DNA of 64,000 nucleotides from positions 41,444-105,443 of the IMG/VR virus record IMGVR_UViG_3300032397_000005; one strand, 5' to 3'. A program made the translations under genes and the position numbers. The DNA is from a virus. The notes beneath the pieces were generated by a model. It worked only from the letters and a program-made list of their open reading frames with translations, did no database searches and was not told where the DNA came from. This document shows, piece by piece, positions 12,598 to 29,333 of this stretch (position 1 is the first letter of the stretch; the number at the start of each line of letters is the position of its first letter).

Positions 12598-12821
12598 TAC
12601 CTTGGTGAGTGAGCTGCCCGTCTTGGCCGTCCTGGCGAAGAGGGGTCCAACGTGACGGCTAATGACCTGGTACTCTTCAGGAAGGTTCGTGATCCTCATT
12701 GGGGCACCACTGGTTCGAGCTGGCGCTATCCAAGCCGTCCTGGCGAATGATCCGTACTGTGGCTCCTTTACTCAGGAATTTCACATTGAGATGCAGCGAG
12801 TCGGTCCCCCGCTCGAGGTTC

Positions 12822-12845
12822 GTACACTTCCCCTGGGTAGTGTAC
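12822..12845. repeat. inverted repeat GTACACT-N10-AGTGTAC
   Basis: Two perfect 7-bp arms separated by 10 bases. The spacing places the half-sites about 17 bp centre to centre. Could be an operator or a weak hairpin; no promoter is evident across it. Confidence 0.6.
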
Positions 12846-12887
12846 ATGAAAAGGCGAGGGGATCCCGAGGGCGGGCGGGGCGGCGGG

Positions 12888-12909
12888 CGCGGGAGGGGTC
12901 CCTCCCGCG
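12888..12909. repeat. 22-bp palindrome, 10-bp arms with a 2-bp centre
   Basis: CGCGGGAGGG, then GT, then CCCTCCCGCG: perfect 10-bp arms. A second smaller palindrome, CCCTCC-TG-GGAGGG, follows at 12920-12933. The tiny central spacer favours a protein-binding or cruciform site rather than an RNA terminator; there is no T-run. Confidence 0.65.
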
Positions 12910-12942
12910 TAAGCGGGCGCCCTCCTGGGAGGGGCTGAATGT

Positions 12943-12960
12943 CTGCCTACATGTAGGCAG
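12943..12960. promoter_or_regulatory. perfect 18-bp palindrome CTGCCTACATGTAGGCAG
   Basis: Fully self-complementary. Close relatives occur at 20469-20486 and 21804-21821, sharing GCYTA-YATG-TAGGC. A perfect 18-bp dyad repeated at separate sites is typical of a dimeric repressor operator. The recognising protein is not known; the nearby minus-strand HTH protein is one candidate. Confidence 0.55.
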
Positions 12961-13030
12961 GAGGGGGGTGGGGGGCGGTCCGGGGTCGGGGGGCGGGTCG
13001 CTCCGGGCGGGGCTGACTCGCGCCCCGGGC

Positions 13031-13147
13031 GGGACCCAAGTTGGGACCAACTTGTTATCGTTCAGAAACGGGACCCAAGTTGGGACCAACTTGTTATCGT
13101 TCAGAAACGGGACCCAAGTTGGGACCAACTTGTTATCGTTCAGAAAC
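13031..13147. repeat. three tandem 39-bp iterons with a palindromic core
   Basis: Copies at 13031-13069, 13070-13108 and 13109-13147 are identical. Each contains AAGTTGG-GA-CCAACTT, a 16-bp near-perfect dyad, followed by TTGTTATCGTTCAGAAAC, which is the only AT-rich stretch in this GC-rich gap. Three phased dyads plus an AT-richer arm resemble replication iterons or ParB/ParR-type centromere sites. The HTH gene 13184-13402 lies immediately to the right, on the minus strand. Confidence 0.9.
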
Positions 13148-13183
13148 GGGGTTCAGAAATGGAGTCCCGGTTTAGGTCCAACG

Positions 13184-13402
13184 CTAGGCCAGTCTCTTGA
13201 CGCGGGCGACGTGACCGGACGCGTTCCGGACGCTCCGGGAGTACGCCCTTGGGGACCACCCCTCGGCGTCCACCTCCCGGACGACCCACATCGAGCCGAC
13301 GCGGGTCCCGGGCAGCCTCCCGTCTCGGATTGCGTACAGGACGCAGACGCGGGTGACGCCCCGCAGCGCGGCAACCTCGGACACCGACAGGAGCTTGTCC
13401 AA
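13184..13402 (-). CDS. excisionase/MerR-type helix-turn-helix DNA-binding protein, 72 aa
   Basis: One of only two minus-strand genes in the window. Residues 4-50 form an HTH_17 domain: LLSVSEVAALRGVTRVCVLY as the turn-helix pair, then IRDGRLPGTRVGSMWVV as the wing and the usual closing strand. Starts at TTG 13402 behind GAGAGCGAGG. Such proteins are excisionases, repressors or origin-binding factors. No integrase is present, so a role on the adjacent iterons or palindromes is more plausible than excision. Transcription runs toward the iterons. Confidence 0.8.
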   Translation of the reverse strand: MDKLLSVSEVAALRGVTRVCVLYAIRDGRLPGTRVGSMWVVREVDAEGWSPRAYSRSVRNASGHVARVKRLA

Positions 13403-13429
13403 CTCGAACCTCGCTCTCTCTCTCCCTAT

Positions 13430-13458
13430 ATCTTAGCGAACGAAAGGTCTCCCGTCCA
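13430..13458 (-). promoter_or_regulatory. promoter of the HTH gene
   Basis: On the minus strand TGGACG (13458-13453) is followed after 17 bases by TAAGAT (13435-13430). These hexamers match those of the eight promoters on the other strand (TGGACA/TAAGAT). The predicted start is near 13423, giving an approximately 20-base leader with an SD-like GAGCGAGG before the TTG. Confidence 0.6.
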
Positions 13459-13592
13459 TCACTTTTCACTCCCAATCGGTAACGAACTGGCAACGCTCCC
13501 GGGCTTCGAGTCGGCGGAGGTCCGCCTCGGGTCTGAGGTGGTCGACGTTGGCGCGGACGGATCGGTCCGCGTTCGCCCGGAGTGAGGCGTCC

Positions 13593-14312
13593 GTGGACTG
13601 GATCCTGCGGACGATGGAGGACCTGGTGGTCACGCTCCCCTCCGGTGAGAGGGTGGAGGCGGCCTTCCGGAGGCCGTCGACGTCCGGACCCACCTCGCTG
13701 GCCGCCTCCGTCCGGTCCTGGCGCGGGGCCACGGTCTCCCTGGGGGACGGTTTCATGACGCTCACCCTGGGTCGCGCGATCCTCCGCGTGAGGACGCGTC
13801 CGGTCTCGATCCAACGTCCCCAAGTGCCGGCGTACTTCCGGACGGGTTCCATCCACGTTGTCCTCGGGGATCCCGGGTGGATCCTCCTGCGCGTTGAGGG
13901 GCGTACGGTGGCGATCCTGCGGGCGGATCTGGCGCCGTGGGCGCCGGTTGTGCGCTTGGTGGTCCCGGATCCCGGGGTTGAGGCGCTGCTGAATGCGTCC
14001 GCCGGTCCGGCGCGTTTCCTCCCGGCGATTAGAACTGGTACCGGGGTGCTACTGTCCGGCGTTCGCTGGGTGAACGCGGGCGGGGCGGTGGTCCCGGTGG
14101 ACTTCCTGCGGGCGCTCCCGGTTGGGACGGTCGTCTCGGTGGCTGAAAACGTCCTGCGGGCACCCGGGTTTGGGGCGGTAACCGGAACGACGGACTTCCT
14201 GGCGTGCGTGGAGGAGGAGACCGGGGTGCTCCCGCCCTCCCGGACGTCCTACTGGACTGATCTTCTCCTCTTCTTATTTCCCTGGACATATTCTTTCTAC
14301 GTGGTAAGATGA
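13593..14312 (+). CDS. hypothetical beta-rich protein, about 239 aa
   Basis: Start placed at GTG 13593 behind GGAGTGAGG; ATG 13614 is the alternative, and the frame extends upstream without a good start. The strong GC3 pattern shows that this strand, not the opposite one, is coding. The product is rich in alternating V/L strands (DLVVTLPSGERVEAAF, GWILLRVEGRTVAILRADL) like a repetitive beta protein. The last ten residues are encoded inside the first of the repeated promoters, and the stop TGA overlaps its downstream flank. Confidence 0.6.
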   Translation: MDWILRTMEDLVVTLPSGERVEAAFRRPSTSGPTSLAASVRSWRGATVSLGDGFMTLTLGRAILRVRTRPVSIQRPQVPAYFRTGSIHVVLGDPGWILLRVEGRTVAILRADLAPWAPVVRLVVPDPGVEALLNASAGPARFLPAIRTGTGVLLSGVRWVNAGGAVVPVDFLRALPVGTVVSVAENVLRAPGFGAVTGTTDFLACVEEETGVLPPSRTSYWTDLLLFLFPWTYSFYVVR

Positions 14313-14316
14313 AAGT
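14283..14316 (+). promoter_or_regulatory. repeated promoter, copy 1
   Basis: TGGACA 14283-14288, 16-base spacer, TAAGAT 14305-14310, six bases, ATG 14317. The transcription start expected 7 bases after the -10 coincides with the A of ATG, so the mRNA would be leaderless. Unlike the other copies, it lies inside the end of the upstream gene and lacks the A-tract upstream. Confidence 0.8.
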
Positions 14317-14961
14317 ATGACAAACAACGCGGTGATTGAGACCACCTTCCAGCTCCTGAGCGTTCGCGACGTCCGCCCGGTGGACTGGTTCTCCGGTGAG
14401 CGGGTTGCAATCCCGGATGGTGAACTCCCGGAGTGCGCGCGCTGTGGGCGGCGCCACGCCGTGGTCTGGACCCTCCGGGAGCTCCCATCCGGCGGGACGG
14501 TGACGGTTGGCTCCGGTTGCGGGCCCAAGCTCCTGGCGGAGGGGCTCCTCCCGGGTGTGGACCTCCACGCGGTTGCGGCGGCCAAGAAGGTCGCGGCGGC
14601 GGAGGTCAGGGCGATCCGGCGCGTGGGCGCGGAGGTGCGGGCGCGGGAGCTGGCGGAGCTGGCCCGGGCGGCGGATCTGGCGGCGGGTGACCCACCGGCG
14701 CCGGTCTGGACCGCGGACGTGTACGGGCGGGCGGAGTTCGTGACCGTGACCGTCGGCGCCGTGGTCCGCTGCGCCGTCGCCCGCCAGCTGGACCGCGTGG
14801 CGCTCGAGCGGATGGCCGCCTCCCAGTGGCGGGACGAGGTCCGGATGGCCGCGGTCGTCGCCGCCGGCTGCCCGCGCGGCGCGCAGCACGCGGTGGTCCG
14901 CCTGGCGAACGCGGAGACCGAGGGGACCCTCCGGGACGCCGCGGCCGCCCTCCTCGGGTAG
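14317..14961 (+). CDS. zinc-site hypothetical protein, 214 aa
   Basis: ATG directly at the predicted transcription start of promoter 1, with no SD, so leaderless translation is expected. CARC at residues ~40-43 and GSGCG about 28 residues later form a metal-site pattern (CxxCG...GxxC) seen in small phage zinc proteins. A long Ala/Arg/Glu helical region follows (VAAAEVRAIRRVGAEVRAREL). Function unknown; first gene of the small-gene island. Confidence 0.7.
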   Translation: MTNNAVIETTFQLLSVRDVRPVDWFSGERVAIPDGELPECARCGRRHAVVWTLRELPSGGTVTVGSGCGPKLLAEGLLPGVDLHAVAAAKKVAAAEVRAIRRVGAEVRARELAELARAADLAAGDPPAPVWTADVYGRAEFVTVTVGAVVRCAVARQLDRVALERMAASQWRDEVRMAAVVAAGCPRGAQHAVVRLANAETEGTLRDAAAALLG

Positions 14962-14965
14962 TGAG

Positions 14966-15029
14966 AAAAAAAACGCACGCGGCTCGTCTTTTCCCTGTAC
15001 ATATTCTTTCTGCATGGTAAGATGAGAGT
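14966..15029 (+). promoter_or_regulatory. repeated promoter, copy 2
   Basis: A-tract 14966-14972, then TGTACA 14996-15001 (one change from TGGACA), 16-base spacer, TAAGAT 15018-15023, six bases, ATG 15030. The sequence from the A-tract (AAAAACGCACGCGGCTC) to the start codon is shared with copies 3-5. Confidence 0.85.
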
Positions 15030-15233
15030 ATGAGCAAGACGACGGAGAGCAAGATGGCAAAGCGGAACGGACGCGAGGTGATGGAGCGGCTGGACGCGGA
15101 GCGGACGGACCGGATGCTCCGGGAGCTGGCCTCGGACCTGGCGGACCTCGTCGCCTCCGGTGACCTGACGGAGGCGGAGGCGAACGAGTGGATGACCCGG
15201 AAGCAGGACCAGTGGAACGGGGGTGACCGGTGA
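15030..15233 (+). CDS. hypothetical protein, 67 aa (or 59 aa from the second ATG)
   Basis: The first ATG is at the predicted +1 of promoter 2. A second in-frame ATG at 15054 has GGAG six bases upstream, so either leaderless or SD-led initiation is possible. The MSKTTESK leader is shared with three otherwise unrelated genes and belongs to the promoter repeat. The body is a helical acidic/basic protein (LRELASDLADLVASGDLTEA). Function unknown. GTGA overlap to the next gene. Confidence 0.6.
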   Translation: MSKTTESKMAKRNGREVMERLDAERTDRMLRELASDLADLVASGDLTEAEANEWMTRKQDQWNGGDR

Positions 15234-15469
15234 CCGCTAAGAAGGACCCGCGCGCCGCAATCCGCGCCGCGCTCGAGGTGGCGATGGCGATCGCGGATGC
15301 CATCCGGGAGCTGGGGACGGTCCCGTCGGGCGTGCTCTACGCCCAGGTGGCGTCGGTCCTGACGCTGGAGGACTTCCTCTGCGTCGTCCGGAACCTGAAG
15401 GAGGCGGGCGTCGTCGCGGAGGCGAACCACGTCCTCCGCTGGACCGGACCCGCGTGGGGTGGCAAGTGA
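15230..15469 (+). CDS. conserved small helical protein, 79 aa
   Basis: GTG start overlapping the upstream stop. The sequence AIADAIRELGTVPSGVLYAQ, then LTLEDFLCVVRNLKEAGVV and a final HVLRW, resembles a small winged-helix-like family common in phages and mobile elements, where it has no assigned function. The resemblance is from recalled pattern only. Could be a DNA-binding regulator. GTGA overlap with the RadC-like gene. Confidence 0.6.
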   Translation: MTAKKDPRAAIRAALEVAMAIADAIRELGTVPSGVLYAQVASVLTLEDFLCVVRNLKEAGVVAEANHVLRWTGPAWGGK

Positions 15470-15855
15470 CCGCCCGGGTCTCCTGCGCGTCGGACGTCGC
15501 CGCGGTCTCCCGCCCGGTCTTCCGTCGCTGGCGGTGGGAGCAGGAGGCGTTCGTGGTCCTCCTCCTCAACGCGAAGCACGACGTCATCGGGCGCCCGGAG
15601 GTCTCGGCGGTCGGGACGGTCACCTCCGTCACGGTCCACCCGCGGGACGTCTTCCGGGCGGCGGTCCGCCGGAACGCGGCCGCGGTCATCGTCGCGCACT
15701 GCCACCCGAGCGGGGACGTGGCGCCCTCCGCGGACGACCTCCTCCTGACCCGGCGCCTCCGGGAGGCCGGGGAGCTTCTCGGGATCCCGCTCCTGGACCA
15801 CGTCATCGTCGGCCGGGACGCCCTCCGGTCCCTGGCGGAGACCGGGCAGCTGTGA
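15466..15855 (+). CDS. RadC/JAB-domain (MPN+) protein
   Basis: Start at GTG 15466 (GTGA overlap). The 129-aa product is a complete RadC-type JAB domain: VVLLLNAKHDVIGRPEVS, HPRDVFRAAVRRNAAAVIVA, the metal motif HCHPSGD...PSADD, then LREAGELLGIPLLDHVIVG. JAB/MPN+ domains are metal-dependent isopeptidase-like folds; RadC proteins are typical of mobile elements and defence islands, with no settled activity. It lacks the HhH region of full RadC. Lies in the small-gene island, so an anti-host role is possible. Confidence 0.88.
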   Translation: MTARVSCASDVAAVSRPVFRRWRWEQEAFVVLLLNAKHDVIGRPEVSAVGTVTSVTVHPRDVFRAAVRRNAAAVIVAHCHPSGDVAPSADDLLLTRRLREAGELLGIPLLDHVIVGRDALRSLAETGQL

Positions 15856-15916
15856 AAAAACGCACGCGCCCTCATTTTTCCCTGGACAGATTCTTTCTGC
15901 ATGGTAAGATGAGAGT
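15854..15916 (+). promoter_or_regulatory. repeated promoter, copy 3
   Basis: A-tract 15855-15860, TGGACA 15883-15888, 16-base spacer, TAAGAT 15905-15910, GAGAGT, ATG 15917. It begins at the stop codon of the RadC-like gene, with no separate terminator between. Confidence 0.85.
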
Positions 15917-16096
15917 ATGAGCAAGACGACGGAGAGCAAGATGACGAAGACGACGAAGACGGTCCACGTCCTGTCCCTCGGCGGGGAGCCCATCCACTTC
16001 GAGACGGCGGCCGCGGCGCGCCGGTTCCTGGACGCCCTCCCGGCCGGGCGACGCTGCGAGTGCGCCTACCTCGGGACGGTCGAGGTGCCCCGATGA
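15917..16096 (+). CDS. hypothetical protein, 59 aa
   Basis: Short gene driven by promoter 3. Begins with the shared MSKTTESKM leader; a second ATG at 15941 with GGAG-N6 could be the real start (51 aa). The body reads VHVLSLGGEPIHFETAAAAR and RRCECAYL, a small alpha/beta layout. ATGA overlap with the next gene. Function unknown. Confidence 0.6.
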   Translation: MSKTTESKMTKTTKTVHVLSLGGEPIHFETAAAARRFLDALPAGRRCECAYLGTVEVPR

Positions 16097-16311
16097 CGCG
16101 CCCGGGCCGCTTCGAGGACACGACGATCTACATCTACTTCCGGCAGTTCCGCGTCCGCTGCGCGGTCACCGGCCGCGTGGAGCACGGGTGCGCGGCGGCC
16201 GGGCCGGCCAAGAAGATGCTTCGGGAGCTGGGCTGGGACTACCTCCCGCGCCAGGGCTGGGTGAGCCCGGAGGGTCTCGAGACGCTGAGGAAGGAGAGCA
16301 CCAATGGCTAG
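16093..16311 (+). CDS. hypothetical protein, 72 aa
   Basis: Start at ATG 16093, overlapping the previous stop by four bases. Sequence features: IYIYFRQFRVRCAVTGRVEH, one CxxxG region, and a C-terminal LGWDYLPRQGWVSPEGLETL. A compact beta-then-helix protein with no recognised family. Overlaps the next gene. Confidence 0.6.
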   Translation: MTRPGRFEDTTIYIYFRQFRVRCAVTGRVEHGCAAAGPAKKMLRELGWDYLPRQGWVSPEGLETLRKESTNG

Positions 16312-16564
16312 GTTCAACGAGGGCGCGATGGCGGAGCTGCTGGCGGAGGTCCTCGGGACGCCGGAGGCGGCGGAGCTGGTGGAGGAGATCCTCGGCGCGC
16401 AGGCGGCGGTCTCCTCCACCTCCTTCCGGGAGGCGGGCGTCCTGACCAACAACGCGGGCCTGGTCGTTCGCGTCGGCCGCCGGGAGTTCCAGCTCACGGT
16501 GGTCGAGAGCACGCCCTCCTACCTCCGGGAGGACGACGGGGAGGATGACGATGACGATGAGTAG
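16304..16564 (+). CDS. hypothetical acidic protein, 86 aa
   Basis: ATG follows AGGAGAG. The first half is helical (MAELLAEVLGTPEAAELVEE), the second contains VVRVGRREFQLTVVES, and the protein ends in a run of Asp/Glu. A strongly acidic tail is common in DNA-mimic or anti-restriction proteins but also in many inert small proteins, so no function is assigned. Confidence 0.6.
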   Translation: MARFNEGAMAELLAEVLGTPEAAELVEEILGAQAAVSSTSFREAGVLTNNAGLVVRVGRREFQLTVVESTPSYLREDDGEDDDDDE

Positions 16565-16829
16565 GCGCAGGCGGTTCCGCCCGGAGGGTCTCCTCCGCGT
16601 CCGCGTCCTCCAGGGCGCGCGCGGCTTCATCCAGAAGTTCCTCGAGCACGAGCTTTGGTACGGGGGAGCGGAGGAGCAGGGCTTCGCGGACGGCTCGACG
16701 GTCTGGCAGGTCTACTTCTGGACGCGGCTCGAGGCGGCGGACGTTCAGGAGCGGATCTGGGCGCAGAACGGCGGCGGCTGGTGTGAGGTCGTCGAGGTGG
16801 ACCCGGAGACCGGGGAGGTGGCGCGGTGA
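16551..16829 (+). CDS. hypothetical protein, paralogue of the 19191-19457 product
   Basis: ATG codons occur at 16545, 16551 and 16557; 16551 is best placed six bases after GGGGAGG. The C-terminal half contains GSTVWQVYFWTRL and ERIWAQNGGGWCEV, matched closely by GSTAWQVYVRTEI and ETIWARNGGGWCEV in the gene at 19191. The two are therefore duplicates within the island. The N terminus is Arg-rich. No known family. GTGA overlap with the next gene. Confidence 0.7.
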   Translation: MTMSRRRRFRPEGLLRVRVLQGARGFIQKFLEHELWYGGAEEQGFADGSTVWQVYFWTRLEAADVQERIWAQNGGGWCEVVEVDPETGEVAR

Positions 16830-17068
16830 GAGGTCGCGACCGGATCCCCTTCGAGCGGAGCGCTGACCTCCGTCTCCTCCTCCCCGGGGGCTGGGAGGCG
16901 TTCGCGCTCCCGCGGACCGAGTTGGCGGCGCTCGAGGAGACCTTCGGAGCCGGGGCGGGTCCGTGGATAGGTCAACAGGCGGAGGCATTCGGAGGCGGTG
17001 AAAAAAACGCACTGAGTTCATCTTTTCCTATGGACAGATTCTTTCTGTATGGTAAGATGAGAGTATGA
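16826..17068 (+). CDS. hypothetical protein, 80 aa, reading through promoter 4
   Basis: GTG start overlapping the upstream stop. The first ~50 residues (RSADLRLLLPGGWEAFALPR...ELAALEETFG) look like a folded protein; the last ~25 residues are encoded by the promoter repeat and are probably incidental. The frame ends at the TGA overlapping the next ATG. Loss of an earlier stop when the promoter repeat was inserted is a likely explanation. Confidence 0.5.
   Translation: MRGRDRIPFERSADLRLLLPGGWEAFALPRTELAALEETFGAGAGPWIGQQAEAFGGGEKNALSSSFPMDRFFLYGKMRV
17000..17064 (+). promoter_or_regulatory. repeated promoter, copy 4
   Basis: A-tract about 17001-17007, TGGACA 17031-17036, 16-base spacer, TAAGAT 17053-17058, GAGAGT, ATG 17065. 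Lies within the 3' end of the upstream reading frame. Confidence 0.85.
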
Positions 17069-17271
17069 ACAAGACGACGGAGAGCAAGATGAACCGGATC
17101 GAGATCGTCTCCTCCCGCAGCGCCAACACCGTCTCCATCGTTGACGGCCTGACGGTCGTCAACATCATCCGGTTCCCCTCCGGGAATTTCTTCAAGACGT
17201 CCACCAAGTGCGCGTCCGTCGAGCGGGCGCGCGCGCTGGCCGCCTCCCTGGCGGCGGAGGAGGTGCTCTAG
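17065..17271 (+). CDS. hypothetical protein, 68 aa
   Basis: Starts with MNKTTESKM, a one-residue variant of the shared leader; the second ATG at 17089 has GGAG-N6. The body is strand-rich (IEIVSSRSANTVSIVDGLTV, NIIRFPSGNFF) with a C-terminal Ala helix, a layout shared loosely with other island proteins that have a strand pair then a helix. Function unknown. One-base overlap with the next gene. Confidence 0.6.
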   Translation: MNKTTESKMNRIEIVSSRSANTVSIVDGLTVVNIIRFPSGNFFKTSTKCASVERARALAASLAAEEVL

Positions 17272-17504
17272 TGGGGACCGCGCGCGTGAACTTCACCCTC
17301 CCCTCCTACCCGGGCGGGGAGGCGCGGCTGGACGAGATCGCGCACCGGCTGGTGGAGGACCTCCCGGCGCACATGCGGCGCGGCGCGGTCCTGGTGGTGG
17401 CTCAGGACTGGGACGGGCGGACGATCTGCTGGACCTCCCTCCGCTGCGGGGAGAGCCGGCCCAACCACCTGGCGTGGGCGCCCGCGTCCATGCCCTGGGA
17501 GTAG
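17271..17504 (+). CDS. hypothetical protein, 77 aa
   Basis: GTG 17271 overlaps the preceding TAG by one base, with GGAGGAGG upstream. Segments: RVNFTLPSYPGGEARLDEIA, AVLVVAQDWDGRTICWTSL. One possible fold is a small alpha/beta domain. No recognised family. Confidence 0.55.
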   Translation: MGTARVNFTLPSYPGGEARLDEIAHRLVEDLPAHMRRGAVLVVAQDWDGRTICWTSLRCGESRPNHLAWAPASMPWE

Positions 17505-17513
17505 GAGAGGACG

Positions 17514-17825
17514 ATGAAGGTCTCCCTGGAGTGCACGAGCCTGGCCGCCCTGGCGGCCGCCCTGACGGACCGGATGCTGAAGCACGCGGACTACGCGGCG
17601 GAGATGTGCGCGGACGGCGACGAGCCCGGGGACGCGGCGCGCTGGATCGCCTTCGCGCGGCTCCTCCGCCGCGGCGGGTCGGTGGAGGTCAACGCCTCCC
17701 TCGAGGCGGCGCTCGACTGCCTCATCGTCGAGCAGGAGACCCTCCCGCCCTGTCCCCGCTGCGGCGGGCAGCGGGACCGGGACCCGGGCGGGGAGGTCTA
17801 CTGCACCGAGTGTCACCCGGGGTAG
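17514..17825 (+). CDS. zinc-ribbon hypothetical protein, 103 aa
   Basis: ATG behind GGAGAGGA. A helical N-terminal two thirds (LAALAAALTDRMLKHADYAA) ends in a zinc ribbon CPRC...CTEC. The arrangement of helical domain plus C-terminal ribbon is typical of small regulators or nucleic-acid-binding proteins. Last gene before promoter 5. Confidence 0.65.
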   Translation: MKVSLECTSLAALAAALTDRMLKHADYAAEMCADGDEPGDAARWIAFARLLRRGGSVEVNASLEAALDCLIVEQETLPPCPRCGGQRDRDPGGEVYCTECHPG

Positions 17826-17886
17826 AAAAGCGCACGCGGCTCATCTTTTCTCTGGACATATTCTTTCTGCATGGTAAGATGAGAGT
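17824..17886 (+). promoter_or_regulatory. repeated promoter, copy 5
   Basis: Short A-tract after the upstream stop, GCACGCGGCTC, TGGACA 17853-17858, 16-base spacer, TAAGAT 17875-17880, GAGAGT, ATG 17887. Almost identical to copy 2 over its whole length. Confidence 0.85.
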
Positions 17887-18081
17887 ATGAGCAAGACGAC
17901 GGAGAGCAAGATGAAGACCGCCACCGAGTACGGGATCCGCTGGTTCGAGTTCGACCGGAGCGACCGCCGGGTCCAGCGGGAGAAGTTCTTCAAGACGGAG
18001 AAGGCGCGCGCAGCCTTCGCGGCGCGGCTGGAGACCAAGGACAACTTCGCGGGTGACTTCACCTGGAGCGAGGAGGCGTAG
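17887..18081 (+). CDS. hypothetical protein, 64 aa
   Basis: Shared MSKTTESKM leader, with the second ATG at 17911 behind GGAG-N6. The body YGIRWFEFDRSDRRVQREKF followed by FKTEKARAAFAARLETK looks like a strand pair plus helix. Function unknown. Ends immediately before the next ATG. Confidence 0.6.
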   Translation: MSKTTESKMKTATEYGIRWFEFDRSDRRVQREKFFKTEKARAAFAARLETKDNFAGDFTWSEEA

Positions 18082-18369
18082 ATGGCCAGCAAACGGAAGA
18101 AGGCGGCGCCGGAGTACCTCCCGCCGGCGGAGCGGATCCTGGCGGCGAAGTTCCTGGCGACCTCGAACCTGGGGCAGCCGGAGCCGCGGAGCGCGGACCC
18201 GTTGGCGAGCAGCTGGTGGACGGGCGCCCGTCCACGGTCCGTGGGCGGAGATGTGCGTCTCCTGCCACGCGCGCGTTGGGCTCGGTTTTGGGCTCGGGCG
18301 GGGTCAACTCTACCAGTTGGCTCCGGACGGAACCTGGGTGAAGGTGCGGCGAACGTGAGGGATCCCTAG
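18082..18369 (+). pseudogene. probable broken paralogue of the 19447-19728 gene
   Basis: The first ~38 residues (FLATSNLGQPEPRSADP at the end) match WLATSNLGQPEAETADP in the gene at 19447. After ADP the similarity stops and the sequence becomes Trp/Arg/Gly-rich. In the +2 frame at 18251-18358 there is a protein-like stretch, CVSCHARVGLGFGLGRGQLY, then APDGTWVKV, with a CxxC pair. The simplest reading is that a deletion or frameshift fused the start of one gene to the tail of another. It could still make a short protein. Confidence 0.5.
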
Positions 18370-18386
18370 GTGTTGGGAGGGCGCGA

Positions 18387-18451
18387 ATAAAAAGCGCATG
18401 AGCTTATCTTTTTCCCCTGGACATATTGTTTCTATCTGGTAAGATGATAAT
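18387..18451 (+). promoter_or_regulatory. repeated promoter, copy 6
   Basis: A-tract, TGGACA 18418-18423, 16-base spacer, TAAGAT 18440-18445, GATAAT, ATG 18452. Belongs to a second subfamily (copies 6-8), with TATTGTTTCTATCTGG-like spacers and GATAAT before the ATG. Confidence 0.85.
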
Positions 18452-18859
18452 ATGAGAACCGAGAGAGAAACCCAGACCAAGGAGACGAAGATGAACTCCC
18501 AGACCGTGACCTTCCCCGTCCGTTCCATCCCACTGACCATCAGCGCCAGCGCGGCGGCGGCGCTCCTGAACGTCTCCACGGACTTCGAGCTGGTGGTGAG
18601 GTTCCTGGGCTACGGCTCGGACTACTCCCGCCTGATGACGGGTGCCGAGAAGGACGTCGTTCGCTACCTGGCGGACGGCTTCGGGACCCTCACCGCGGCG
18701 GACGCGGTGGAGACGGACGAGCACCAGGACCTCCTCCGCGACTGGAGCCACGTCCGCGACTCCTCGCCGGAGGCGGTGGCGAACATGGCGGCGGCCATCC
18801 GCGCCTTCTTCGCGGCGCACACGGTCCAGGATGAGGAGACCTTCCTGAGCGGTTACTAG
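18452..18859 (+). CDS. hypothetical protein, 135 aa
   Basis: The first ATG is at +1 of promoter 6. A second at 18491 (Met14) has AAGGAG-N6 and may be the true start, giving a 122-aa protein beginning NSQTVTFPVRSIPLTISASA. The rest is an acidic helical protein (FELVVRFLGYG, then MTGAEKDVVRYLADGFGTL). No known family. Confidence 0.65.
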   Translation: MRTERETQTKETKMNSQTVTFPVRSIPLTISASAAAALLNVSTDFELVVRFLGYGSDYSRLMTGAEKDVVRYLADGFGTLTAADAVETDEHQDLLRDWSHVRDSSPEAVANMAAAIRAFFAAHTVQDEETFLSGY

Positions 18860-18866
18860 AGACGTC

Positions 18867-18893
18867 GACCCTGGGGGAGCTCCTCCCGGGGTC
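18867..18893 (+). terminator. strong hairpin between 18452-18859 and 18911
   Basis: GACCCTGGGGG pairs with the following CTCCCGGGGTC (11 pairs, two of them G-T) with a 5-base loop. There is no T-run after it; instead the SD of the next gene follows directly. It may be a weak terminator, an mRNA-stability structure or a translation-control hairpin. Confidence 0.4.
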
Positions 18894-18910
18894 TTGGGAG
18901 GAGGTGCGCG

Positions 18911-19129
18911 ATGCTGATTGAGGCGACGGATCCGCGGGAGGCGGCGCTGGGGATCCTCCGTCGGGACTTGACGGGGGACGCGCGGGGGGCGCTGGCGTAC
19001 CTCCTGAACAACGCCCTCTGCCCGCTGGTCTGCGATCTCTCGTTCGACGACGCGGCGCTCAACCTGGGGTACGTCCGGGACGCGGTCATGCAGCTCCGGG
19101 CGATGGTTCTGGAGATCGTTTCTGGGTGA
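18911..19129 (+). CDS. hypothetical protein, 72 aa
   Basis: ATG behind GGGAGGAGG. Helical throughout: DPREAALGILRRDLTGDARG, then YLLNNALCPLVCDLSFDDAA. Two cysteines. No recognised family. Separated from promoter 7 by a few bases. Confidence 0.6.
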   Translation: MLIEATDPREAALGILRRDLTGDARGALAYLLNNALCPLVCDLSFDDAALNLGYVRDAVMQLRAMVLEIVSG

Positions 19130-19190
19130 TAAAAACGCCTCCCCCCACTTTTCCCCTGGACATATTGTTTTTATCTGGTAAGATGATAAT
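19129..19190 (+). promoter_or_regulatory. repeated promoter, copy 7
   Basis: A-tract, TGGACA 19157-19162, 16-base spacer, TAAGAT 19179-19184, GATAAT, ATG 19191. No second ATG with an SD follows closely, so initiation at the first ATG (leaderless) is required here. Confidence 0.85.
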
Positions 19191-19457
19191 ATGAGAACAA
19201 AGAAAGCAACCAAGAAGCTCCTCAGGATTCGGATGGGTCAGGCGTTCCGCGGGTTCCTGCTGGGCGTTTGCCAGGAACTCCGGCTCGAGGTGGAGTCCAC
19301 GGGGTACGCGGAGGGGTCGACGGCGTGGCAGGTCTACGTGCGGACGGAGATCCCGGCGGACGTGATTCAGGAGACGATCTGGGCGCGCAACGGCGGCGGG
19401 TGGTGCGAGGTCAATGAGATCAACGGTCAGGACAACGGAGGGAGAGATGTCAAGTAA
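19191..19457 (+). CDS. hypothetical protein, paralogue of the 16551-16829 product
   Basis: Begins at the predicted +1 of promoter 7. Shares LLRIR/LLRVR at the N terminus and GSTAWQVYVRTEI...ETIWARNGGGWCEV at the C terminus with the earlier gene, so the N-terminal residues before Met15 are genuine and support leaderless initiation. Overlaps the next gene by 11 bases. Function unknown. Confidence 0.7.
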   Translation: MRTKKATKKLLRIRMGQAFRGFLLGVCQELRLEVESTGYAEGSTAWQVYVRTEIPADVIQETIWARNGGGWCEVNEINGQDNGGRDVK

Positions 19458-19728
19458 GAAGAGAGCGAAGCAGCCGGTCTTTATCCCGGAGGCGGAGCGG
19501 GACCTGGCGGCAAAGTGGTTGGCCACCTCGAACCTGGGGCAGCCGGAGGCAGAGACGGCGGACCCAGAGGCAATTTTGCGCGCATGGGAGGCGTGCGTCC
19601 GGGCGCACGGGGACGAGGGGATCGACGTGATGCCGGAGTTCAGGGGTTGGAAGCGGGACATTGCGGCGGGTGACGCCTTCTGCGCGGAGGAGTGGGGGAA
19701 GTTCAAGGCTCAGAAGGAGGTGCGTTGA
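19447..19728 (+). CDS. hypothetical protein, 93 aa
   Basis: ATG 19447 behind GGAGGGAG. Full-length version of the family whose broken copy lies at 18082: AERDLAAKWLATSNLGQPEA near the start, then an alpha-helical region with EACVRAHGDEGIDVMPEFRG. One-base overlap with the next gene. The same gene order, with a WQVY-type gene upstream, is not kept at 18082. Confidence 0.65.
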   Translation: MSSKKRAKQPVFIPEAERDLAAKWLATSNLGQPEAETADPEAILRAWEACVRAHGDEGIDVMPEFRGWKRDIAAGDAFCAEEWGKFKAQKEVR

Positions 19729-19877
19729 TGGATCACGCGGCGGTTGTGAGGGCGGCGATGATGTGGTGCGCGGAGCTCCTTGAGGCGGCGCTCGAGGGCC
19801 TGGTGACCCGGAGGCGAGGGAGGTCTTTCTGGCGGACGCTACGGGTCTGCGGGACCGCCAGGAGGTGGTCTTTGTGA
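19728..19877 (+). CDS. short hypothetical protein, possibly frameshifted
   Basis: ATG 19728 overlaps the upstream stop, with AAGGAGG as SD. The first ~27 residues (VVRAAMMWCAELLEAALEGL) look folded, then Arg-rich low-complexity follows. In the -1 frame from about 19811 to 19945 a protein-like continuation is seen (EAREVFLADATGLRDRQEVV, then FVTYLIRHQICELRAR). A single-base indel near 19800-19815 would explain both. A true two-gene arrangement is possible but lacks a start. Confidence 0.4.
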   Translation: MDHAAVVRAAMMWCAELLEAALEGLVTRRRGRSFWRTLRVCGTARRWSL

Positions 19878-19965
19878 CGTACCTCATTCGGCACCAGATC
19901 TGCGAGCTCCGTGCCCGGGCGGATGTGATGGGGAAGAAGGTTTGACGGGTACCTCCTGATACGTG

Positions 19966-20030
19966 AAGAAAACGTCACCTCCCCTCATTTTTCCTCTGGA
20001 CAAATTGTTTCTATCTGGTAAGATGATAAT
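19966..20030 (+). promoter_or_regulatory. repeated promoter, copy 8
   Basis: A-tract, TGGACA 19997-20002, 16-base spacer, TAAGAT 20019-20024, GATAAT, ATG 20031. Last copy of the series. Confidence 0.85.
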
Positions 20031-20249
20031 ATGAGAACCACGAAGGAGACGCAGATGACGAAGACGATGAAGGCGGTTCGGAAGTTCACGGCGGGCCTGG
20101 CGGTTGGGCGCTCTGACCTCAACCGGAACGGTTACGCCTGGATGGCGCGGAACGTGGCGACGCTCATCCGCCTCACCAAGGACGAGCCCAACTGGCTCCG
20201 CGGTTACCGCGCGGCGCTCGAGGACGCGCAGGACGGGGAGGTGCTTTGA
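20031..20249 (+). CDS. hypothetical protein, 72 aa
   Basis: The first ATG is at +1; a second (Met9) has AAGGAG-N6 upstream. Basic N-terminal half (MKAVRKFTAGLAVGRSDLNR) and a C-terminal helix (NWLRGYRAALEDAQDG). The GYRAALED pattern is common in small phage proteins of unknown role. One-base overlap with the next gene. Confidence 0.6.
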   Translation: MRTTKETQMTKTMKAVRKFTAGLAVGRSDLNRNGYAWMARNVATLIRLTKDEPNWLRGYRAALEDAQDGEVL

Positions 20250-27155: not shown

Positions 27156-29333
27156 TTGGACCTCGACAGCAAGACAGCCACCGGAATCACGCCGGAGTTC
27201 CTGGCGGAGCTCTCCCACGGGGAGTTGATCTTCCTGGCGGACGTCGTGTCTGAGCGGACGCTGGAGCCGGTCCTCCGGGAGGACGAGCGGGATCGCGCCC
27301 TGGAGACGGAGCTGGCGGAGGGGTTGGACGCGGACTGGACGGCGGACTACGAGCCGGCGTCGGAGGCGGCGCTTGCGGACCTCCCGGAGGCGGACGTGTC
27401 CGTTGAGGAGGTGGACGCGGCGCTCGGGAGGATTGGGGCCAGTCTAGACAAGCGGGACACGTCCGGAGCGCGGAAGTTGTTGCTTGGGGCGTTGACCGCG
27501 GTGGCCCTCCTGGCGCGCGGGCGGACCCGGGACCGGGTCCGCGTAAAGGACCCCAAGGCGGCGGCGCAGGTCTCCACTTCCCTCTCCCAGGCGGACAAGG
27601 GGGCGATTGAGGCAACTACCAAGGCGCAGCTCTGGTGGATCGGGGACCTCTGGGGGCAGCACCTCTCCCGGGTGATCCTGGAGACGGTTCGCCGGGAGGC
27701 GTTGGTCCGCGGGCTGGGGCGCGCGGACGTGGGGAAGGTCATGGACGGCGTCATCAACGCAAAGGTCCCGGCGGCCTTTGTTCCGGATACCTGGAGGGGG
27801 AGCAAGGAGGGGTACTTCCGGATGCTCTCCGGGACGGTCAGGTGCCGTGAGAGTACGTCCAGCGCCCTGTACTCCCTCCGGGAAGCGGGGTTCTCCCGGT
27901 ACAGGTTCGAGGCGGTCATGGATGAACGCACCTCGGACGTCTGCTTTCGCGCGGGGACGCGGGTGTTCTGCGCGGACGGGGAGCGGGACATCTCGGAGGT
28001 CCGGGTTGGAGACACCGTTATTTCCGGGCTTGGAGCGCGGAGGAGGGTGCTCAGGACCTGGTTGAATGAAGCGGAGGACTGGAGGGTCATAACGCTGACG
28101 TCCGGTCGTACGGTTACGGTAACCTCCAATCATCGGTTCCTCACGGTCCGCGGGTGGCGCCGCGCGGGGGACCTGGAGATTGGAGAGGACCTTGCCGCGC
28201 AGGAAGCACGTCCTGAAGAAACTTGCCGGGGTCTGCGAGCACTGCGGGAAGACGTTCCCCTACACCCCGTCGAAGACCAAGCCGGTCCGGAAGTTCTGCG
28301 GGCTTGCATGCTACCACGCCCGCAAGGGCGCGGAGAAGCGGGTCGAGCGAAAGTGCCTTCAGTGCGGGGAGACCTTCCACCCGTACCGGACTCACGCGGA
28401 GCAAGGGCGGGGACTGACCTGCAGCACCGTATGCCGCCGGAGGTTCTTCCGTCGGGGGCTCCCGCCGGAGGCGCTCGACCGGATCTGCGAGACGTGCGGG
28501 AAGACGTTCAGGGTCCGGCCGCTGGAGCACCTTACCGGGAAGGCGCGTCGACACTGCTCCAACGAGTGCCGGAAGCGGCGCGGATTGATCGTCTGCGAGA
28601 CCTGCGGGGTAGAGTTCGAGGCAAAGCTGACGAGCGGAGGGATTCCAAGGCGCTTCTGCTCCCGTCACTGCTACCACTCCCGGAGGACCGCAACGCGGCC
28701 GGAGGTGTTCGTTCGAGCGGTCCTCGAGGAGGCGGGTCTGGAGTTCCGCGCGGAGGAGCCGCTGGGGAGTCTTTTCCTAGACTTCTTTGTTCCGGCGCTC
28801 TCCTTGGGGATCGAGGTGGACGGGACGTACTGGCACTCTCGGGAGAACTCACGGGAGCGGGATTATGCCAAGGAGGAGGCGGTGCGGCGGGTCGGGATTC
28901 GACTCCTGCGGATCTCGGAGGAGAACACCCAGGCGCCGGACGCGGAGAAGCGGGTCCTGCGGAGTATCTTGCGCGCGCTGTTGGAACCGTCCGCGTTGTC
29001 TCAAATGCTCCGCTCCGCGTCGTAGACTTCTCCTACAACCTCTCAGTGGACGGTGACCCGACCTATGTAGTCGAGGGGGTGATTGTCCATAACTGCCGGG
29101 AACTTCACGACCGCGTGTTCGTCGTTAACGACGGCATCGACCTGATGGAGCGGGTGAACGTGGCGGACAACCCGGACGCGGTGAAGGACCTGGCCGGGTG
29201 GCGAACCGCGGACGACGTTCGCGGGATCATCGGGAAGCAAGATGCGGAGGGGGCCAGGAAGTCCCTGACGGAGTCCGGGATCATCTGGCCTCCACTCCAC
29301 GCCAACTGCCGGAGCGTCATCACGCCGGACTGA
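27156..29333 (+). CDS. MuF-like minor head protein interrupted by an intein
   Basis: The exteins together (about 341 aa) form a Mu gpF/SPP1 gp7-type head protein: FEAVMDERTSDV joined to CRELHDRVFVVNDGIDLMER and ending WPPLHANCRSVITPD. These match the MuF core D-E-R-T-x-x-x-C-R...L-H and P-x-H-x-N-C-R-S. The intein (27942-29093) sits exactly before the conserved Cys of DVC. Starts at TTG 27156. The N-terminal ~200 residues are acidic and helical. Without splicing the head domain would be disrupted, so splicing is presumably essential for virion assembly. Confidence 0.88.
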   Translation: MDLDSKTATGITPEFLAELSHGELIFLADVVSERTLEPVLREDERDRALETELAEGLDADWTADYEPASEAALADLPEADVSVEEVDAALGRIGASLDKRDTSGARKLLLGALTAVALLARGRTRDRVRVKDPKAAAQVSTSLSQADKGAIEATTKAQLWWIGDLWGQHLSRVILETVRREALVRGLGRADVGKVMDGVINAKVPAAFVPDTWRGSKEGYFRMLSGTVRCRESTSSALYSLREAGFSRYRFEAVMDERTSDVCFRAGTRVFCADGERDISEVRVGDTVISGLGARRRVLRTWLNEAEDWRVITLTSGRTVTVTSNHRFLTVRGWRRAGDLEIGEDLAAQEARPEETCRGLRALREDVPLHPVEDQAGPEVLRACMLPRPQGRGEAGRAKVPSVRGDLPPVPDSRGARAGTDLQHRMPPEVLPSGAPAGGARPDLRDVREDVQGPAAGAPYREGASTLLQRVPEAARIDRLRDLRGRVRGKADERRDSKALLLPSLLPLPEDRNAAGGVRSSGPRGGGSGVPRGGAAGESFPRLLCSGALLGDRGGRDVLALSGELTGAGLCQGGGGAAGRDSTPADLGGEHPGAGRGEAGPAEYLARAVGTVRVVSNAPLRVVDFSYNLSVDGDPTYVVEGVIVHNCRELHDRVFVVNDGIDLMERVNVADNPDAVKDLAGWRTADDVRGIIGKQDAEGARKSLTESGIIWPPLHANCRSVITPD
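27942..29093 (+). mobile_element. intein in the MuF-like head protein
   Basis: Begins with Cys in CFRAGTRVFCADGERDISEV (block A), has GRTVTVTSNHRFLT as block B, WRRAGDLEIGEDLA after it, and ends LRVVDFSYNLSVDG...VVEGVIVHN (blocks F/G: terminal His-Asn) directly before extein Cys. The splicing residues Cys1, block B His, penultimate His and terminal Asn, plus the +1 Cys, are all present. Length is 384 codons. The central ~260 codons in this frame are low-complexity Arg/Gly/Pro; the real information there is in the +1 frame (28180-29025). Confidence 0.9.
28180..29025 (+). CDS. zinc-finger Vsr-like (EDxHD) homing endonuclease, out of frame within the intein
   Basis: 281-aa frame, +1 relative to the intein. 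Four successive zinc fingers of the form C-x2-C-G-x-x-F...C-x3-4-C occupy residues ~18-165 (CEHCGKTF, CLQCGETF, CETCGKTF, CETCGVEF). They are followed by a PD-(D/E)xK/Vsr-like nuclease: LGSLFLDFFVPALSLGIEVD, GTYWHS, ERDYAKEEAVRRVGIRLLRI. The E-x-D...H...D set fits the EDxHD homing endonucleases. The only starts are TTG 28180 or TTG 28192, with weak SDs. It would spread the intein by cutting inteinless MuF genes. Confidence 0.85.
   Translation: MERTLPRRKHVLKKLAGVCEHCGKTFPYTPSKTKPVRKFCGLACYHARKGAEKRVERKCLQCGETFHPYRTHAEQGRGLTCSTVCRRRFFRRGLPPEALDRICETCGKTFRVRPLEHLTGKARRHCSNECRKRRGLIVCETCGVEFEAKLTSGGIPRRFCSRHCYHSRRTATRPEVFVRAVLEEAGLEFRAEEPLGSLFLDFFVPALSLGIEVDGTYWHSRENSRERDYAKEEAVRRVGIRLLRISEENTQAPDAEKRVLRSILRALLEPSALSQMLRSAS

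Follow-up and report, generated by a model that had tools for sequence, protein, structure and literature searches.

Results

An array of promoters that end on a start codon

How is translation started in a viral gene cluster whose near-identical promoters all end on an ATG? The question arises in a 105,443-bp IMG/VR virus record (IMGVR_UViG_3300032397_000005, here G000), of which we analyzed a stretch of 64,000 nucleotides (G000:41444-105443, hereafter the window; positions below are those of the window unless a contig is named). Eight copies of TGGACA-N16-TAAGAT-N6-ATG lie on its plus strand within 5.7 kb (14283-20033); the chance expectation is 0.02, and eight copies were reached in 0 of 100 shuffles. 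An earlier note on this DNA had described the array, and we recovered all eight copies, at 14283, 14996, 15883, 17031, 17853, 18418, 19157 and 19997, with one mismatch in copy 2 (TGTACA). The 16-nt spacer and the 6-nt gap that the note called invariant are so in every window copy, and both of its subfamilies, GAGAGT and GATAAT, are present, copy 1 reading GAAAGT. We noted in addition that the window copies carry an extended -10, TGnTAAGAT, which is absent from the earlier description.

Downstream of the first ATG, six copies had been distinguished by a second in-frame ATG with GGAG-N6, and this division stands. The second ATG lies at +24 in copy 2 (14996-15032, TGTACA..TAAGAT, ATG 15030, second start 15054, gene 15030-15233), copy 3 (15883-15919, ATG 15917, second start 15941, gene 15917-16096), copy 4 (17031-17067, ATG 17065, second start 17089, gene 17065-17271), copy 5 (17853-17889, ATG 17887, second start 17911, gene 17887-18081) and copy 8 (19997-20033, ATG 20031, second start 20055, gene 20031-20249), and at +39 in copy 6, of the GATAAT subfamily (18418-18454, ATG 18452, second start 18491, gene 18452-18859). 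No GGAG start follows copy 1 (14283-14319, -35 TGGACA, extended -10 TGGTAAGAT, ATG 14317, gene 14317-14961) or copy 7 (19157-19193, ATG 19191), the latter offering no more than a weak AGGA-N5-ATG at +42. The gene of copy 7 is a paralogue of 16545-16829, and the two align at 44% identity from residue 2 of the first-ATG ORF, in support of the previous argument that the first ATG is used there.

Outside the window, the same record holds two further copies, at G000:17718, ahead of a UvrD-like helicase, and at G000:19294. A known RNA element was considered as the identity of the repeats and dropped, an Rfam search of 13-22 kb having given no match near the gathering score.

The promoter recurs in related contigs

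A TerL search returned related contigs at 67-79% identity (L060-L062 and L082-L086). Nine related contigs and L061 were scanned with a matrix of the 28-nt promoter core, in which the start codon was unscored, at a cut-off of 20 bits. Sites above this cut-off numbered 32, spread over eight related contigs, and 0 in the shuffle; no site was found in G007 or L061. The choice of contigs is only partly independent, because the copies used to train the matrix came from start-codon patterns. A strict pattern scan of genome contigs added one bacterial MAG contig (L106) with two copies outside matrix training, and both keep the rule, with ATG first starts and second starts at +30 and +45. With the search for such arrays for which the earlier note had called, the count stands at 32 promoters in eight related contigs, those of G000 included, and two in the MAG contig, or 34 in total. 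The exact pattern had 51 matches in viral contigs, many of which are probably due to chance for a 15-base pattern, and only contigs joined by TerL, helicase or the stricter pattern were kept for analysis.

Individual genes retain the arrangement across contigs: the copy 6 gene has a homologue in L106 that is likewise cassette-led, as is the orthologue of the copy 8 gene in L060/G001 (84%), where the leader between the two starts is 21 nt vs 24. The phage has no DNA match among named phages, its TerL is only about 25% identical to theirs, and no TerL relatives were found among 84,980 genomes. One cassette contig sits in MAG M3-44_Bin_119, the binning of a phage fragment being weak evidence of a host. 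We saw no phage sigma factor or RNAP among the sampled genes of G000, for which annotation is partial.

The first codon behaves as a translation start

The codon 6 nt after TAAGAT is ATG in 20 and GTG in eight of the scan copies (28/32), and one copy has an ATG at 5 nt. Over all 34 copies, there are 22 ATG and eight GTG at 6 nt and one ATG at 5 nt, with no TTG or CTG. Seven GTG copies read ATGTGA at the start; the ATG two bases upstream of the GTG stops immediately, so only the GTG frame is open. In mycobacteria, an ATG or GTG at +1 is necessary and sufficient for a leaderless start, whereas TTG and CTG are poor (PMC4633059), and the use of ATG and GTG without TTG in the cassettes matches this rule. 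The first RTG was lost in three copies, which read ATA (G006-70704), TAG (G006-15404) and ATC (G005-27982), so a leaderless start is not essential.

A second start of the form GGAG-N5-8-RTG lies downstream of the first RTG in 26 RTG-bearing copies, with 23 unique leaders between the two. The leaders were selected without regard to frame. Nevertheless, the 12 distinct distances from RTG to second start (18, 21, 24, 30, 33, 36, 39, 42, 45, 48, 51 and 105 nt) are all multiples of 3, for which the chance probability is (1/3)^11 = 6e-6, copies inside one genome not being independent. Read in frame, the leaders contain no stop in 249 codons; in the two other frames together, nine of 452 codons are stops. 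The GC content of the leaders at codon positions 1/2/3 (0.45/0.49/0.755) is near the pattern of phage genes. A natural control is provided by G005-27982, in which the start is ATC, the leader has lost one base (20 nt), the second start is out of frame and the frame is closed after seven codons; its sister copy G005-26933 has an ATG, a 21-nt leader and an in-frame second start. Were the first codon under selection as a start of translation, such a contrast would be expected.

The earlier proposal that the first ATG is used thus gains from the 12 in-frame leader lengths, the lack of stops, the GC3 bias, and an ATG or GTG, never TTG, at a fixed distance in eight contigs. Judged from these patterns, the first RTG almost certainly serves as a translation start, and an RTG read in this way would, with normal sigma-70 geometry, imply a leaderless mRNA. 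The placing of +1 on the RTG is taken from promoter geometry; both sigma-70 geometry and competence of the host for leaderless GTG starts are assumed.

An SD start is embedded in frame behind the first

Within 60 nt of the first start, a second start is present in 27/34 cassettes vs 15/218 control genes (7%; Fisher P = 2e-19, descriptive since the copies are related). The 34 copies comprise 26 with both starts, five with the first only (window copies 1 and 7, G000:19294, G006:71701 and G006:72592), two with the second only (G006-15404 and G005-27982) and one ambiguous copy (G006-70704, ATA). Four cassette-led orthologues of the helicase gene have WSxYQE in common after the second start, and a cassette-less helicase relative, L121, begins AGAAAGGAG-N7-ATG-GAA-TGG, which is homologous to the second start. 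The embedded start that the earlier note had placed behind the first ATG is therefore strongly enriched, and L121 starts there. The second SD start is likely the ancestral start of at least one gene, and the cassette appears to have been added in frame ahead of an SD-started gene that was already there. We infer that both starts are used in vivo.

Promoter architecture and a candidate regulator

The copies have the features of a sigma-70-type extended -10 promoter: a -35 of TGGACA, TTTACA or TTGACT, a 16-nt spacer (17 nt once) and TGnTAAGAT, which is nearly invariant across copies. A conserved NNTTCTTTCT lies within the spacer, and the -35 is preceded by a T-rich block. The conservation of NNTTCTTTCT is more than a plain sigma-70 promoter requires. 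Perhaps a second protein binds in the spacer, and we infer that the promoter is strong or early in expression.

Further upstream, most copies have an A- or T-tract about 62 bp and a T-tract about 42 bp before +1. In window copies 2-8, for which the earlier note had reported an A-tract and a T-tract, these lie at about -64 to -60 and at -43 to -41, as exemplified by copy 2 (14968-14995, plus strand). The A-tract is two helical turns upstream of the -42 T-tract, and relatives have a T-tract in its place, which suggests an UP-type or curvature element. The tracts of the window copies were also considered as terminators and rejected, since their folds are not more stable than those of shuffled sequences (z -1.8 to +1.5). 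Outside the window, there are strong hairpins at G001-29454 and G008-2465 and weaker ones at four other copies.

A small DNA-binding protein, HTH_17 (PF12728), is encoded on the minus strand at 13184-13402, and each of the seven related contigs over 10 kb in length has homologues in the neighbourhood of its cassettes. Hypothetically, HTH_17 proteins could be regulators of the spacer element, which makes this gene a candidate.

Discussion

A model for dual-start genes and its competitors

We put at roughly three in four the probability that these repeats are a promoter-plus-start cassette, combining a leaderless first start with an embedded in-frame SD start, that has been copied and kept in the phage lineage. 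According to this model, which is built from sequence, the upstream A/T-tract element and a housekeeping (sigma-70-type) extended -10 promoter would set transcription to start on the first base of the RTG: with +1 seven bases after the -10, the RTG's own A or G would open the message, which would be leaderless. The 6-17 codons that follow (35 in one gene) would encode a hydrophilic, A-rich N-terminal tail, and the SD and the older start codon would lie inside this stretch, in frame with the first start. RNA made at the local promoter could then be translated from the leaderless start, to give an extended protein, and from the SD start, to give a short one, and read-through RNA from upstream would use the SD start only. 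The cassette would have spread by copying to as many as ten sites in this phage, and selection would keep it in related phages. We are doubtful, though it is possible, that the matter goes further, such that a lineage-wide mobile cassette turns SD-started genes into dual-start genes, the isoform is chosen by transcription origin or ribosome state, and HTH_17 controls the spacer element.

Were the mRNAs conventional, transcription would begin from about the first RTG and the SD start alone would be used, the RTG being a preferred initial transcribed sequence and the leader a short 5' UTR. Such a reading is compatible with the conservation of the GGAG-N6 start in 26 RTG-bearing copies, with G006-15404 (TAG) and G005-27982 (ATC), which keep the SD start without a first start, and with L121, which starts at the SD site. 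Nonetheless, we regard it as very unlikely, given that 12/12 leader lengths are multiples of 3 with no in-frame stops and coding-like GC3, that five copies lack a GGAG second start, that the first codon is kept as ATG or GTG and never TTG, and that the homology of copy 7 reaches residue 2. Another way to give the RTG a lesser role is 70S recruitment, in which, on the pattern suggested for E. coli ptrB, a 5'-terminal RTG would mainly supply the SD start further on and the extended protein would be a by-product. In ptrB, the 5'-uAUG is the major recruitment signal and the leader is 26 nt (PMC4965119), to which the 18-51 nt leaders here are similar. Yet recruitment does not require a shared frame, and the frame is always kept; the E. 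coli uORFs either lie in another frame or stop ahead of or inside the gene (PMC4965119), and five copies offer no SD start to feed. We consider recruitment as the main role quite unlikely.

The repeats might instead act as operators, or form a promoter class peculiar to the phage, under the control of a phage DNA-binding protein such as HTH_17, in which case the overlap with the start codon would be incidental. The spacer and the upstream T-rich block are indeed conserved beyond the hexamers, and HTH_17 genes accompany the cassettes in each of the seven longer related contigs. But this account, in which binding by HTH_17 is purely hypothetical, explains neither the RTG nor the conservation of frame, and we judge it unlikely as a replacement for the dual-start cassette, with which it is compatible rather than exclusive. 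Lastly, chance or plain duplication of one locus would reduce the common features to recent copying. Copies 2-5 are nearly identical, and so are copies 6 and 8 in their promoters, but the same architecture is found in eight related contigs (TerL 67-79% identical), whose leaders have diverged in length and sequence, and was found again by the separate MAG search, leaving this explanation next to no chance.

Relation to known systems

Leaderless genes are common, and a TANNNT hexamer precedes their start codon by about 12 bp (PMC3160421); in 28/32 cassette copies, the RTG lies 12 bp past the first T of TAAGAT, and the restriction of leaderless starts to ATG and GTG holds across the 34 copies. 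Leaderless genes of Actinobacteria and Deinococcus-Thermus (PMC3160421, PMC4633059, PMC12340547) are alike in having a -10 about 12 bp before ATG or GTG and no SD for that start. They are, however, single host genes, whereas one near-identical phage promoter is reused up to 10 times here, and the cassette adds a -35, an extended -10, a conserved spacer, A/T tracts and an in-frame SD start. Thermus phage phiYS40 is described as making leaderless middle and late transcripts (Sevostyanova 2007, as cited in PMC3594737). It is alike as a phage that issues leaderless mRNAs, a property deduced here from geometry, but the citing account of phiYS40 mentions no embedded second SD start. Thermus phages were absent among the TerL and MCP matches listed. 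In E. coli, some mRNAs have a 5'-terminal AUG and an SD start a short way on (Beck 2016, PMC4965119), and by sequence 26 copies have both an RTG predicted to be 5'-terminal and a downstream SD start; the uORFs tested in E. coli are out of frame or end separately, whereas the two cassette starts always share frame and gene.

Other phages repeat short elements at small genes. SAS/ESAS repeats occur at the starts of many small non-structural genes in cluster K mycobacteriophages and cluster EF Microbacterium phages (PMC3203893, PMC7302621). The SAS motif, 13 bp long and RBS-like (GGGATAGGAGCCC), precedes the start, whereas what is repeated here is a promoter with the start codon at its end, and the 13-bp motif was absent from all cassette leaders examined. 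PeSL cassettes, found in small-gene islands of T4-like phages, join a promoter to a stem-loop (Arbiol 2010, Comeau 2014, cited in PMC4503421). As summarized in the citing paper, PeSL comprises a promoter and a terminator stem-loop, with no mention of a leaderless start; the window cassettes have no significant hairpin, none of the eight copies reaching a fold z of -2 or below, as six copies elsewhere do. Our search of open-licence papers turned up no account of a repeated promoter that has a start codon at its end, is followed by an in-frame SD start and is conserved in a phage family. Leaderless phage messages and mRNAs with a 5'-terminal AUG and an SD start are thus already known; the repeated, conserved, in-frame dual-start promoter cassette is a new form of these.

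Implications

Leaderless initiation is usually studied gene by gene. The cassettes form a natural replicated set over several related phages, spanning near-identical promoters with both starts, a leaderless start only, an SD start only or a broken start codon, and with them one can test directly how leaderless and SD initiation compete and how phages use N-terminal isoforms. Gene callers that choose the SD start will misannotate the N-termini of cassette-led proteins. If the model is true, many small phage genes may each yield two versions of their protein.

Variant cassettes and neighboring genes

A weaker cassette-like core, TGGACG-N17-TAAGAT, lies on the minus strand immediately 5' of the HTH_17 gene in the window (13458–13430) and has no start codon at +1. 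In a related phage contig, the cassette at G006:70704 (minus strand) carries ATA as its start codon and has an otherwise intact, in-frame leader; the ATA possibly reflects AUA initiation or a recent loss. Two contigs from other samples, L116 (IMGVR 3300031999_007328) and L117 (IMGVR 3300031997_002114), contain helicase loci encoding a protein identical to that of the G000 phage, and the L116 leader bears one synonymous change (CCG to CCT). A serine-recombinase (Resolvase) gene at G000:19555–20277 comes immediately after the cassette-led gene at G000:19328.

Other coding features of the window

The gene after the portal encodes an intein (PF14890/Hint; 27156–29333, plus strand), inside which a Vsr/DUF559-type endonuclease-like ORF (28180–29025, plus strand) is nested in a different reading frame. 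GC3 identifies the nested frame as coding across 28200–29000; the intein frame is open throughout. Separately, direct repeats at approximately 13000–13130 within ORF 12662–13585 encode three copies of GTQVGTNLLSFRN.

Candidate cassette regulators

Small HTH_17 proteins are encoded close to promoter cassettes in each of the related contigs above 10 kb: at window 13184–13402 (minus strand) and G000:17416–17640; G001:31319 and G001:96153; G006:17913 and G006:71563; G002:9904; G003:2569; G004:9141; and G005:25012. These HTH_17 proteins may regulate the cassette.
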